60,191 nucleotides of DNA from Alphaproteobacteria bacterium. GTDB taxonomy: Bacteria; Pseudomonadota; Alphaproteobacteria; Micropepsales; Micropepsaceae. This document shows, piece after piece, positions 6,588 through 47,722 of the stretch (position 1 is the stretch's first letter; each line of letters begins with the position of its first letter). Position numbers and translations under genes: made by a program. Under the pieces are notes generated by a model. The model saw only the letters and a list, made by a program, of their open reading frames with translations, searched no databases and was not told the DNA's origin. The stretch is taken from the NCBI GenBank assembly GCA_028865545.1, contig JAGWJY010000016.1:1-60191 (forward strand). The letters are read 5' to 3'.

Positions 6588-7190
6588 ATGGATTCCTGGG
6601 AATGGAACAAGATCGCCGGCGCGATCCTCGGCACATTGATCTTCGTTCTCGTCGTCAAATTCACGGCAGACGCGTTCTTCGAACCAACCCCGCCAGCCAA
6701 GCCAGGTTATGTGGTCGCAGGCGTTCCTGACGAGCAGTCCACCAGCACCGCCACAACGGCACCTACCGAAGAGCCTTTGCCCGATTTCGGCAGCGTTTTG
6801 CCGACGGCGGACGTCGCGGCCGGCAAAGAGATTTCGCATCGCTGCGAACAGTGCCACGACCTCTCCAAGGGCGGCCCGAACAAGATCGGTCCGAACCTCT
6901 GGGGCGTGGTGGGACGCGACAGAGCCACGCACCCCGGCTTCGACTATTCGAGCGCCATGTCGGGCAGCCACAATCCGTGGACCTTCGACGAATTGTTCCG
7001 CTTCCTGAAGTCGCCGCAGGCTTATGTTCCGGGCACCAAGATGACCTTTGCCGGTCTGCGGAGCGCACAGGATCGCATCAACCTCCTGGCCTATCTGCGC
7101 ACGCAGAGCGACAGCCCGGTGCCGATCCCGCCGCCCGCCGCCAAAGGCGCCGCGGCCGCACCGGCCGCGAAGCCCGCGGAGAAGAAGTAA
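6588..7190 (+). CDS. membrane-anchored class I cytochrome c (CycM type)
   Basis: 200 aa. One membrane segment (about residues 10-24) acts as an uncleaved anchor, followed by a Thr/Pro-rich linker and a class I cytochrome domain. Haem is attached at C86-E-Q-C89-H90, with M152 (GTKMTFAG) as the likely sixth ligand. The tail from about 175 is Ala/Pro/Lys-rich and probably disordered. In rhizobia the CycM-type cytochrome sits in the same position, divergent from kdsB-pheA, and carries electrons from the bc1 complex to the aa3 oxidase. That role is inferred here. A GCGGAG ribosome site precedes the ATG. Confidence 0.88.
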   Translation: MDSWEWNKIAGAILGTLIFVLVVKFTADAFFEPTPPAKPGYVVAGVPDEQSTSTATTAPTEEPLPDFGSVLPTADVAAGKEISHRCEQCHDLSKGGPNKIGPNLWGVVGRDRATHPGFDYSSAMSGSHNPWTFDELFRFLKSPQAYVPGTKMTFAGLRSAQDRINLLAYLRTQSDSPVPIPPPAAKGAAAAPAAKPAEKK

Positions 7191-44411: not shown

Positions 44412-44767
44412 CGGGGGCGCGGCCTTTAGGTACAGTCAGCTGCATGCGTCGGAGCAACAGACGCCGAGGCGCTGACCACGCGCGATGCGGATTGTTCAAT
44501 CGTATCCGGTGAGGCGCCGTCAGCGGCGAACGGCGATCCGATCAGTCTCAAATCGCCTGCACATATGTACGACTGCAGCTCGTTGTCCCATTTGGCCGTA
44601 TGTGACGCACTGTCGCGGCGAAGGTGTGCACAACCGAACTGCTGCTAAGCCTAGAATTCCTATAACTAAATCAGCACGTCCGCGGTTATGTCCGGTAAAT
44701 TACTTACTTTATAGTTCGGTATGCGTCTTATAATTGTTCACACGCGAATAGATACTCAATAAAGTTG
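44412..44767. other. gene-free stretch upstream of the HiPIP gene
   Basis: 356 bp between ftsK and the HiPIP gene. The second half is AT-rich compared with its surroundings. It contains TATAAT at 44729-44734, with a weak -35-like TTACTT at 44704-44709 (19-bp spacing), which could be the HiPIP promoter. No RNA gene, repeat or convincing ORF was seen. Confidence 0.5.
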
Positions 44768-45103
44768 ATGAGCGAAACCATGAGGCCTCAACCAATGTCT
44801 GTTGACAAAAATTGCACGAAGACAACCGTCGATGAAACACACCAGCACGGAGATGTGTCGCGCCGCAGTTTACTGCGCGGCGCCACGATCACTGCCGGCG
44901 GCGCGGTGTTGCTGGCCGCGGCCATGACAACCCAACCCGCCGAAGCAAAAATGGCCCAGACGGCTGCTGCTTACGTCCCGACCGCCAAGGGCGGACAGCA
45001 TTGCTCGGAATGCGCGCTCTTTATCGCACCGTCGTCGTGCCGTCTGGTGGATGGAGCGATCAGCCCCACGGGCTATTGCAGGTTCTTCGTCAAAAAAGGT
45101 TGA
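44768..45103 (+). CDS. high-potential iron-sulfur protein (HiPIP), Tat-exported
   Basis: 111 aa. A small periplasmic [4Fe-4S] electron carrier. The Tat signal is SRRSLLRGATITAGGAVLL (RR at residues 32-33), with cleavage near AEA (about residue 60). The cluster cysteines are C79, C82, C91 and C104 (CSEC ... SSCRL ... TGYCRFF), the HiPIP spacing C-x2-C-x8-C-x12-C. C16 lies before the Tat motif and is removed. In Acidithiobacillus ferrooxidans the HiPIP Iro was proposed to be an iron oxidase; others donate electrons to photosynthetic or respiratory complexes. It starts the unit with a cytochrome-porin fusion and cytochrome c4. Confidence 0.9.
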   Translation: MSETMRPQPMSVDKNCTKTTVDETHQHGDVSRRSLLRGATITAGGAVLLAAAMTTQPAEAKMAQTAAAYVPTAKGGQHCSECALFIAPSSCRLVDGAISPTGYCRFFVKKG

Positions 45104-45156
45104 GCCCCGTGCTGAAGGGCTGGTGGTAGCTGGTTTACACATCTTGAGGTAGTGCA

Positions 45157-46524
45157 ATGCCGGGTCGTCGCATACGAACGCAGTCATCTTTTGCAGTTAT
45201 TCTCGGTTTCCTAACGCTGTCAGCACTTCCTCAATCGGCGCAGGCCGTACCGAGTTACGCGCGACAGACAGGTCTGGCCTGCGAAGCCTGTCACACCGTG
45301 TTCCCCCAGCTCACCCCGTTCGGTCGCGTCTTCAAGGCGAGCGGCTACACGCTCTTCAATACACGCAAGGTCCAGGATATTGATCAGCAGAAGCAGTCTA
45401 CCCTGTCGCTGTCTGATCTACCGCCCGTCTCCGCTATGGTGATGGCGTCGACCAGCATGGCCGCCAAGGCCAACGATTCCACGTCAAGCAAGACGTCCAC
45501 CGACTTTCCGCAGCAACTGAGCCTGTTCTACGCGGGGCGCATCTCGGACAACGTCGGCGCGTTCGTTCAGCTGACCTATGACGACCAAAGCGGCAGTTTC
45601 GGTATCGACAATACTGACATCCGCTTCGCTGACGTGGCCAACGTTGACGGTCACAACGTCATTTACGGCATCAGTCTGAACAACAATCCAACCGTCCAGG
45701 ATCTGTGGAACAGCGTGCCGGCTTGGGAGCAGCCGTTCATCGCATCACCGGCCCTGCAGGGGCCCGCCGCGGGGTCGCAGATTGAAGGCGCGATGGCGCA
45801 GAATGTTGCTGGATTGTCGGCGTATACGTTGGTCGATGAGTCGCTGTACGCGGAGGTTGGCGTCTACCGGTCGGCGCTCCAAGGTGCTTCCGTGGCGAAC
45901 AATGGGGATGCCAACAACCAAATCATTTCCGGCGTCGCCCCATATTGGCGCGTTGCCTACGAAAAAGACTGGGGAAAGAACTCATGGGAGTTCGGCGTGG
46001 TCGGCCTCTACGCGGCACTTCAAAATCCGACGACTCCTGCCGGAGCAGCCATTAACGGACCGCTGCAAAATGCGCCGACCGATCGTTTCCTCGATACCGG
46101 CTTGGATACCCAATATCAATATATCGATGACCACGACCAGGTGACCGTCACCTCAAGCTGGGTGCATGAAAACCAGGATCTCAATGCGAGCTATGCCGCG
46201 GGCTTTGCATCGATGTCGAGCAATAGTGTCGATACGTTCAATCTTAACGGCAGCTATTTCTGGCTTCGTAAAGTTGGAGGCAGTCTGGGATTCACCAGCG
46301 TGTCAAGTTCCAATGATCCGCTTTACTTCGGCACACCAGTTGGCAATTCCAACAGCAGTTGGGGGACCGTCGAGGTCAATTATCTGCCGTGGCTGAATGT
46401 CAAGCTGGGCCTGCAATACACCGCCTTCTTCAAGTTCAATGGCGCGTCTTCCAATTACGACGGCGCCGGCCGCAACGCATCCGACAACAACATGCTGTTC
46501 GGATATTTGTGGATCGCGTATTAG
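45157..46524 (+). CDS. monohaem cytochrome c fused to an outer-membrane beta-barrel (Cyc2-like)
   Basis: 455 aa. The signal peptide ends AQA at residue 30. A short N-terminal cytochrome segment has one haem site, C42-E-A-C45-H46, in the block PSYARQTGLACEACHTVFPQ, followed by LTPFGRVFKASGYTLFN. The other 380 residues or so are alternating polar/aromatic strands with many Tyr, Asn and Ser, typical of a porin barrel, and the last residue is Tyr (GYLWIAY), as expected for an outer-membrane signal. This is the architecture of Cyc2, the fused cytochrome-porin that accepts electrons from outside the cell in iron oxidisers. The substrate here is inferred, not shown. It lies 53 bp after the HiPIP gene. 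Confidence 0.82.
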   Translation: MPGRRIRTQSSFAVILGFLTLSALPQSAQAVPSYARQTGLACEACHTVFPQLTPFGRVFKASGYTLFNTRKVQDIDQQKQSTLSLSDLPPVSAMVMASTSMAAKANDSTSSKTSTDFPQQLSLFYAGRISDNVGAFVQLTYDDQSGSFGIDNTDIRFADVANVDGHNVIYGISLNNNPTVQDLWNSVPAWEQPFIASPALQGPAAGSQIEGAMAQNVAGLSAYTLVDESLYAEVGVYRSALQGASVANNGDANNQIISGVAPYWRVAYEKDWGKNSWEFGVVGLYAALQNPTTPAGAAINGPLQNAPTDRFLDTGLDTQYQYIDDHDQVTVTSSWVHENQDLNASYAAGFASMSSNSVDTFNLNGSYFWLRKVGGSLGFTSVSSSNDPLYFGTPVGNSNSSWGTVEVNYLPWLNVKLGLQYTAFFKFNGASSNYDGAGRNASDNNMLFGYLWIAY

Positions 46525-46554
46525 CCAACCCTATAACAAATAGGACAGAGCGTC

Positions 46555-47169
46555 GTGAAAATTGTCTTCGTTGTGACTTTGGCGACTTGTGCAAGCGTGG
46601 CAAGTACATTGGCAATGGCGGAAGGCTCAAGCACGATCCCGCCGGCCGCGGTAGCCGAGGCGACATCCGTATGTCAGGACTGCCACGGGCCACAGGGTAA
46701 CAGCGTGTCATCAACCTTTCCTCGCTTAAACGGCCAACAAGCCGATTATATTGAGGCCCAGCTCAAGAATTTCCGCGACCACAGCCGAAGCGATCCGCAT
46801 GCGCGTGCCTACATGTGGGGCATGGCTTCCCAACTCGACGACGCCACCATCGCCGGACTGGCAAAATACTACTCCGGCCAAACACCGACACAGCCCCAAA
46901 AGGGAGGTGCGCTCGCCGCCGAGGGCAAGAATATCTTCATGAACGGTGTTGAGGCCCAGAACGTGCCGGCGTGCCAAGCGTGCCATGGCGAGCATGGAGA
47001 AGGTAACAGCGTGATTCCGCGGATTGCCGGTCAGCATGCCAATTACCTAAAAACCCAGCTGGAAGCGTTTCGTTCGACCCTGCGCGAGAGCGACGTGATG
47101 CATGCCAACACCAAAGACATGACTGACAGCCAAATCGAGGCGTTGGTATCGTATCTCGCCAACGACTGA
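46555..47169 (+). CDS. dihaem cytochrome c4
   Basis: 204 aa from a GTG start (MKIVFVVTLATCASVAS), with signal cleavage near AMA. It has two cytochrome c domains with haem sites C40-Q-D-C43-H44 and C140-Q-A-C143-H144. M87 and M182 are the likely axial methionines. The repeats FPRLNGQQADYIEAQLKNFR and IPRIAGQHANYLKTQLEAFR are classic c4 halves. In A. ferrooxidans the c4-type Cyc1 passes electrons from the Cyc2/rusticyanin path to the aa3 oxidase. Here it lies 30 bp after the cytochrome-porin gene, so the two are probably one operon. Confidence 0.92.
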   Translation: MKIVFVVTLATCASVASTLAMAEGSSTIPPAAVAEATSVCQDCHGPQGNSVSSTFPRLNGQQADYIEAQLKNFRDHSRSDPHARAYMWGMASQLDDATIAGLAKYYSGQTPTQPQKGGALAAEGKNIFMNGVEAQNVPACQACHGEHGEGNSVIPRIAGQHANYLKTQLEAFRSTLRESDVMHANTKDMTDSQIEALVSYLAND

Positions 47170-47209: not shown

Positions 47210-47722
47210 CTACCAGGAGCAGCCATAGGCGGTGCATTTGGCCTTGAGGTGCGTCTCATTGGTTTGTGGACGCACCGCCGAGGACTGCACATCCGGTGCA
47301 GCCGCCGAGTTGTCTGACGTGCCCGCGCCGCTCGGTATGCTGCCGACACCAATGTTTACGGCATCCCAAACGCCGGGATTTTGTGGATCAATCTCGCCTT
47401 CCCGATAGACCTCAATCGTCACCGTAGTGCCCGGCGCAATCGATAGAGCACCACCACGGCTCGACGCGTACGGTGTGCCGATAATTCTGAAATATCGAAA
47501 TCCATGACCCAGCGTCGTGCGGGCGGCGATGGTCAATATTTTTTGCGTGGCACTGCGATCGCTGTCGCCAACGGTTTCCTTTCCAGAAATCACAATGACA
47601 TGATCATTGCGCATCGGCGGCACCGGATGTGCGCAGGCCGAAAGCGCGAGCCCGCAAAGCGCAGCGAAGAGAAGTGGCCGGCCAATGCCTTTCATGGCGG
47701 CGGCGTGGTTACGGGTGCTCAT
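47210..47722 (-). CDS. putative lipoprotein of unknown function
   Basis: 170 aa. The signal ends GLALSAC (C30), a good lipobox. The mature part has VIVISGKETVGDSDRSATQK and ILTIAARTTLGHGFRYFRII, which recalls a group of small Caulobacter-type lipoproteins of unknown function (CC0125-like), then a Ser/Ala-rich tail ending KCTAYGCSW. An AAGGAG ribosome site precedes the ATG. It converges on the c4 gene (40 bp), so it belongs to a different transcript. Confidence 0.65.
   Translation of the reverse strand: MSTRNHAAAMKGIGRPLLFAALCGLALSACAHPVPPMRNDHVIVISGKETVGDSDRSATQKILTIAARTTLGHGFRYFRIIGTPYASSRGGALSIAPGTTVTIEVYREGEIDPQNPGVWDAVNIGVGSIPSGAGTSDNSAAAPDVQSSAVRPQTNETHLKAKCTAYGCSW

Follow-up and report, generated by a model that had tools for sequence, protein, structure and literature searches.

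Iron oxidation through Cyc2, a cytochrome-porin, is known mainly from specialists. The DNA analysed here (the window, 60,191 nucleotides) is the whole of contig JAGWJY010000016.1 (C56) of a Micropepsaceae genome (G000; 3.4 Mb, 101 contigs, 95.7% complete), and it carries neighbouring genes for a high-potential iron-sulfur protein (HiPIP), a Cyc2-like cytochrome-porin and a dihaem cytochrome c4, together with a linked lipoprotein gene. An earlier reading of the sequence alone (the sequence-only reading) had correctly assigned the first three of these genes to an alphaproteobacterium.

The rus operon of Acidithiobacillus ferrooxidans encodes Cyc2, Cyc1, the cox proteins and rusticyanin, with Cyc1 in second place behind Cyc2 (PMC10654088). 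In the window a c4 gene likewise follows the Cyc2-type porin gene directly, and the host has an aa3 oxidase; however, the cluster lacks cox genes, a HiPIP gene stands upstream and a lipoprotein gene is linked to it, while a search of the host genome for rusticyanin at E 0.001 came out empty, in agreement with the sequence-only reading. The rus arrangement, rusticyanin and cox genes with cyc2-cyc1, was not found, the host COX1 matches lying on other contigs, and a search of 398 genomes of the phylum for rusticyanin, meant to locate such an operon, gave weak matches in 51 of them and none over the cut-off. The claim of a different gene order held only in part, since Cyc1 follows Cyc2 in A. ferrooxidans too. 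Ferrovum strain JA12 has a Cyc2-like protein, a Cyc1-associated cytochrome and a HiPIP without rusticyanin (PMC4725956), but going by locus tags its HiPIP (FERRO_02670) lies near cytochrome FERRO_02680 with Cyc2 (FERRO_13930) elsewhere, whereas the window holds one cluster. The Acetobacteraceae are also alphaproteobacteria in which cyc2 often lies beside a mono- or dihaem c-type cytochrome gene, with HiPIP in acidophilic members, although the passages of PMC10715153 contain no statement of a HiPIP within the cyc2 cluster. In pioABC of the alphaproteobacterium Rhodopseudomonas palustris, the HiPIP PioC (the best solved-structure match of the window's HiPIP) serves an outer-membrane iron oxidase; unlike the window's module, in which a single haem and the porin form one protein, that system places the decahaem PioA in a separate porin, PioB, and it is phototrophic (PMC10654088), whereas searches of the host genome gave no photosystem match.

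As Cyc2 is described beside cytochromes in alphaproteobacteria (PMC10715153) and homologues are known in Hyphomicrobiales and Acidiphilium (PMC10654088), the kind of system is already known. The new part, as far as the literature searched shows, is the joint cluster with HiPIP and a linked lipoprotein gene; the published passages searched for a joint HiPIP-Cyc2-c4 cluster contained no statement of one, and it is not claimed to be unpublished. A compact Cyc2 module in probable heterotrophs would widen the range of organisms that join iron cycling, and the cluster provides a physical link between HiPIP and Cyc2. It is also a small gene set suited to testing in a laboratory host, to which the lipoprotein and a near-invariant methionine of the porin, Met94, add concrete testable elements.

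Proposed role and layout of the module

The module fairly probably provides an accessory route by which electrons from dissolved Fe(II) reach the respiratory chain, as a Cyc2-type uptake module with a HiPIP in rusticyanin's place. From gene content, predicted fold, linkage, co-occurrence and the presence of respiratory-chain genes accepting electrons from c-type cytochromes, we infer the cell location of the proteins, the donor, the direction of flow, the order of carriers, the role of the lipoprotein and the use of the module as a supplement. Cyc2, a 16-strand porin with one haem c near its N-terminus, would lie in the outer membrane, where a dissolved reductant, most likely Fe(II), would pass an electron to its haem. 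The Cyc1-like c4 and the HiPIP, both presumably periplasmic, would carry the electron to the inner membrane, the HiPIP standing where Acidithiobacillus has rusticyanin. There it would either run downhill, reaching the aa3 cytochrome c oxidase, or go uphill via bc1. The linked lipoprotein would probably act as a membrane accessory, and the host would use the module to supplement organic substrates. The features of the window concerned are the following.

44768..45103, + strand: HiPIP-like periplasmic iron-sulfur protein, 111 amino acids, twin-arginine signal (open reading frame, NCBIfam, solved-structure matches)
45002..45079, + strand: four [4Fe-4S] cysteine codons of the HiPIP, C-x2-C-x8-C-x12-C (sequence)
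45157..46524, + strand: Cyc2-family outer-membrane cytochrome-porin, 455 amino acids (predicted 16-strand barrel, porin matches, family conservation)
45244..45294, + strand: cytochrome signature AVPSYARQT-GLA-CEACH (sequence, alignment)
45436..45438, + strand: Met94, candidate distal haem ligand (present in 95 of the 100 Cyc2 proteins aligned)
46555..47169, + strand: dihaem cytochrome c4, Cyc1-like, 204 amino acids (PF00034, solved structure 1h1o)
46672..46686, + strand: c4 haem site 1, CQDCH (sequence)
46972..46986, + strand: c4 haem site 2, CQACH (sequence)
47210..47722, - strand: lipoprotein, convergent with c4, module-linked in relatives (linkage in relatives)

The sequence-only reading had described a three-gene module, and its three open reading frames were recovered exactly in coordinates, strand and gaps (53 bp between HiPIP and Cyc2, 30 bp between Cyc2 and c4, all on one strand), as were the cysteine pattern and twin-arginine signal (VSRRSLLRGA) of the HiPIP, the single CxxCH at residues 42-46 and the terminal Tyr of the 455-residue protein, and the two CxxCH sites of the c4. 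The three genes were real; the linked lipoprotein gene at 47210-47722(-) had been overlooked.

HiPIP, Cyc2 and c4 genes were also found clustered in four relatives (G022, G023, G033 and G071), whose Cyc2 proteins are 66-76% identical to that of the window, and this joint presence is more than chance clustering; in G071 and G033 HiPIP is encoded on the other strand. No terminator-like site was found on the + strand between the three module genes. Promoter-like sites were near chance (3 against 1.4 expected), one lying directly 5' of the HiPIP gene at 44737-44765, and so were terminator-like sites (3 against 2.7 expected), one of them after c4 at 47231-47255. A single weak inverted repeat lies upstream of the module.

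The Cyc2-like cytochrome-porin

The 455-residue protein had been read as a cytochrome-porin with a Cyc2-like fold, and its haem site and a predicted barrel support that reading. Neither Pfam nor NCBIfam matched it, and as solved-structure sequence searches with the single sequence or a profile gave no match at E 1, the barrel rests on predicted structure. A model built from 22 family sequences (predicted local distance difference test, pLDDT, 71.1) was matched to porins by Foldseek, the best being Vibrio cholerae OmpT (E 1.0e-10). With 100 sequences a model of pLDDT 89.7 and predicted template modelling score 0.86 was obtained, in which 16 long strands run from residue 91 on; the fold check suggested in the sequence-only reading did, in this respect, predict a barrel. 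In VIA-align, the porin model matched OprO 4rjx (Z 22.9, root-mean-square deviation 3.4, 320 residues aligned), 4rjw (Z 22.6) and OprP 2o4v (Z 22.5); OprO and OprP, the published structural templates for Cyc2 (PMC8406198), thus ranked within the best five, level with OmpC/OmpF-type porins (all of these at Z 21-23). By the criteria of Keffer et al., a length of at least 365 amino acids and a haem-binding CXXCH site, the protein falls within Cyc2 with its 455 residues and single CxxCH. Length, haem site and predicted fold together support its identification as a probable Cyc2-family cytochrome-porin, of which one copy was found in the host genome.

The haem cysteines, His46, Pro50, Leu52, Gly56, Arg57, Phe59 and Lys60 never vary in the 100 aligned Cyc2 proteins. 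As Met94 is the only other Met or His residue of the window protein to exceed 90% conservation, it is a candidate for, and may be, the distal haem ligand of Cyc2. The published passages searched for an axial methionine in Cyc2 contained no statement of one, and novelty is not claimed on this point.

Partner genes of the porin

The downstream gene product had been called a dihaem c4 cytochrome, and this was upheld, with a likeness to Cyc1. Two PF00034 stretches (65.9 bits, cut-off 21.3) and two CxxCH sites give the two haem c domains on one chain that mark a cytochrome c4. Its best solved structure was 1h1o (cytochrome c-552, E 2.4e-37), named Cyc41 of A. ferrooxidans (PMC10879576), with 1etp and 6q2u as further solved c4 relatives; judged by sequence similarity among solved structures, it is closest to Cyc1 of that species. 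Outside the host family, a c4 match lay directly after Cyc2 in 35 of the 75 loci with 700 bases of room (two repeat contigs left out), with two CxxCH in 33. Divergence of Cyc2 and of c4 was correlated (r 0.82) across 43 loci with a two-haem c4, family included, a value reached in 0 of 2000 permutations.

The upstream protein was named HiPIP-like as its PF01355 score lies under the gathering cut-off, while its four cysteines and its matches to PioC (6xyv, E 4.5e-6) and 1isu (E 9.3e-5), found with phmmer, support the fold; the twin-arginine signal model scored 20.8 bits (cut-off 16.7). The cysteine spacing is identical to that of Iro, in which the cysteines lie at 24/27/36/49 (PMC10654088). The parallel to Iro that had been drawn in the sequence-only reading thus holds in part: spacing and PioC match indicate an Iro/PioC-like protein, but its score does not make it an Iro equivalog. 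What HiPIP does in acidithiobacilli has itself been called unresolved (PMC10715153). HiPIP matches were found in 12 of 30 family loci and, outside the family, only as one weak match (E 6e-5, L032) among 78 loci; as the profile was built from family members and the family loci had shorter flanks, distant HiPIPs may be missed. At one locus (L143, G041:C95), Cyc2-c4 is followed about 1 kb further on the same strand by HiPIP, with an IS110-type transposase and a four-CxxCH open reading frame beyond.

Across the 96 genomes of the host family, HiPIP and Cyc2 were both present in 19, HiPIP only in 3, Cyc2 only in 17 and neither in 57 (Fisher p 1.2e-7), and within the genus the corresponding numbers were 16, 3, 13 and 37 (p 1.8e-5), p-values that take genomes as independent and ignore phylogeny. 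Cyc2 was thus held by 19 of the 22 HiPIP genomes, as compared with 36 of 96 overall.

Searches of Pfam and NCBIfam with the lipoprotein came out empty at E<=1, and relatives of it were found in 6 of the 96 family genomes, host included. In G000, G022, G023, G033 and G071, which are all the genomes with a window-clade Cyc2 on a contig long enough to tell, a gap of 25 to 331 bases separates the lipoprotein gene from one of the module genes (5/5). When the other flanks of the window were looked for at the four other sites (G022, G023, G033 and G071) they were absent, whereas the lipoprotein gene was kept. In G022 the copy beside the module has no readable lipobox and a second copy, 13 kb off, has one. 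In a sixth genome with a window-clade Cyc2 (G053, 88% complete), where the module borders the end of a 4.3-kb contig, the lipoprotein was not matched anywhere; the sixth lipoprotein match, that of G045, is a weak one (E 4.2e-9), on another contig than that genome's Cyc2. Going by this linkage, the lipoprotein is probably a fourth member of the module.

The nature of the partners also bears on the donor, which might be a dissolved reductant other than Fe(II), such as Mn(II), or an electrode-like surface. Cyc2 homologues have been hypothesised for Mn(II) lithotrophy (PMC9040806), and one comes from the electrode-oxidising Tenderia electrophaga (PMC7029218). The Cyc2 proteins of verified function, however, act on Fe(II) (PMC8406198), and c4 and HiPIP each resemble partners in iron oxidisers; a donor of another kind is considered unlikely.

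Host context and distribution

A complete path from outer to inner membrane had been proposed from the sequence, which overstated the case: the module contains no oxidase or bc1 genes and resembles the outer half of a Cyc2 pathway. The host genome does contain an aa3 oxidase (CoxA 728 bits, CoxB 202 bits), a bo3 quinol oxidase (CyoA, CyoB) and a Rieske protein, each scoring above its NCBIfam cut-off, and a cytochrome b over the Pfam cut-off, the aa3, bo3 and bc1 genes lying on contigs other than that of the module. The COX1 family was matched a third time at 1402-4131 of L126 (G000:C80; 189.9 bits, which exceeds the Pfam cut-off), in a long open reading frame that has no NCBIfam match at 1e-10. 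Electrons could in principle also flow outwards, the module serving as a ferric reductase wire; in A. ferrooxidans, Cyc2, Cyc2B/Cyc1B and Hip have been suggested to take part in anaerobic Fe(III) reduction (PMC8790237), and Acidiphilium and Acidocella reduce Fe(III) (PMC10715153). High-potential carriers such as HiPIP and c4, combined with an aa3 oxidase, would nevertheless fit inward flow better, and the outward direction is regarded as improbable.

The only RuBisCO_large match in the host (L123, G000:C83, 1420-2544; 74.9 bits against a Pfam cut-off of 30.1) scored under every matched NCBIfam cut-off, its best model being a methionine-salvage enolase (140.4 of 409 bits), and it was not accepted as a carbon-fixation gene. 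We tentatively infer that the host lacks Calvin-cycle carbon fixation, with the proviso that some 4% of its genome may be absent from the assembly. As no photosystem match was found and this sole RuBisCO-family protein scores too low to count as a carboxylase under the equivalog models, use of the module would be a supplement to organic substrates.

A VIT1-family gene adjoins the module in two relatives, G023 and G071. Among the 14 genomes searched, 8 have one VIT1 match each, including G022, G023, G033, G053 and G071, and random placement (3300 genes assumed) would put 2 of 5 within four slots with p ~1.5e-5, in a test chosen after the pattern was seen. The host's second HiPIP-like match (L152, G000:C38) runs, on the opposite strand, into the end of the gene for an FTR1 iron permease (match at about 1766-1996, permease gene at 949-1797). 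Such neighbours suit a role in iron protection or homeostasis, in which surface oxidation of Fe(II) would keep it out of the cell or limit Fenton chemistry, any energy gained being incidental. The lack of a photosystem match, the RuBisCO-family protein falling below carboxylase equivalog cut-offs and the occurrence of some Cyc2 relatives in taxa that are not known as iron oxidisers also agree with this. Against it, the dihaem c4 and HiPIP genes next to that of the porin point to electrons being handed on to the respiratory chain, and the host assembly has no VIT1 match; protection as the main role is judged unlikely.

Several findings weigh against the proposed route of electrons from Fe(II) to the respiratory chain, besides the assumption of independent genomes in the HiPIP-Cyc2 p-values. 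The iron neighbour VIT1 was not seen in the host assembly, and in loci outside the family it was matched in 1 of 80 (L078, about 3 kb from Cyc2). Among the best 80 of at least 555 Cyc2 relatives, found in a scan of genome contigs, are proteins of Ralstonia pickettii, Acidipila and Paraburkholderia, organisms known as heterotrophs. For the HiPIP, the NCBIfam Iro model (NF041615) gave 59.7 bits (E 2.5e-16), below the equivalog cut-off of 100, and PF01355 gave 18.2 bits, below the gathering score of 22. HiPIP is not obligatory, as 17 of the 36 Cyc2 genomes have no HiPIP match and two of these, G050 and G051, carry a monohaem cytochrome gene at the site. Exclusive pairing of c4 with Cyc2 was considered but found no support: of the 96 family genomes, 26 hold a c4 homologue at E 1e-15, and only half of these, 13, have a Cyc2 match while 13 have none (p 0.16). 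Compared with the published Cyc2 motif, AXPXFAR[Q/K][T/Y] upstream of CXXCH and PXL downstream, the window's AVPSYARQT keeps 6 of 7 fixed positions, Tyr replacing Phe, with 3 residues to CXXCH as opposed to 5 and PQL present; the full motif occurs in orthologues L003-L005, and its strict form, with 3-residue spacing, in 57 of 110 loci, as compared with 93 of 110 for a relaxed form of our own making.

Cyc2 matches were found in 36 of the 96 family genomes, in G003 only as two short fragments. The best 80 of the at least 555 relatives belong to Pseudomonadota, Bacteroidota, Acidobacteriota, Gemmatimonadota and others, and the names Acidithiobacillus, Mariprofundus and Leptospirillum do not occur in the titles of these 80. 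A quick tree of 100 rows, 26 of them from the family, put 19 family rows into one group and 7 elsewhere, including the window's clade of 5; a tree holding the window clade and L007/L010 together was not rejected (approximately unbiased test, p-AU 0.789) and had a likelihood above that of the free quick tree. In G050 and G051 (L154 and L155), an inverted Cyc2-c4 pair, its Cyc2 49% identical to that of the window, lies, as the window's module does, between ftsK and etfB, with a divergent monohaem cytochrome c gene in HiPIP's place. We read the ftsK-etfB site as what appears to be one old locus with exchanged carriers; repeated insertion would be an admissible alternative.

Taken jointly, the findings may be read as a lineage-specific Cyc2 pathway in which HiPIP would replace rusticyanin as dedicated periplasmic carrier, the hitherto undescribed lipoprotein would be a fourth working part and Met94 the distal ligand, the whole serving heterotrophic alphaproteobacteria as an iron-fuelled supplement with swappable carriers (the monohaem cytochrome at the HiPIP site of two relatives). 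That all of these parts hold together is possible but rather doubtful.

Elsewhere among the relatives, an open reading frame of about 900 amino acids with four CxxCH follows Cyc2 on the same strand after about 0.5-0.6 kb in L094, L096, L097, L100 and L104, that is, in 5 of the 7 loci titled Acidobacteria, Acidobacteriaceae or Acidipila, and part of it matches the c4 profile. Cyc2 is broken into two open reading frames by a stop in L060 (3150-4541), and two Gemmatimonadetes loci (L084 and L076) have a second Cyc2-like gene near the first on the same strand. In the window itself, a second c-type cytochrome with a weak likeness to cytochrome c-550 CycA (77.7 bits, cut-off 240) lies at 6588-7190.

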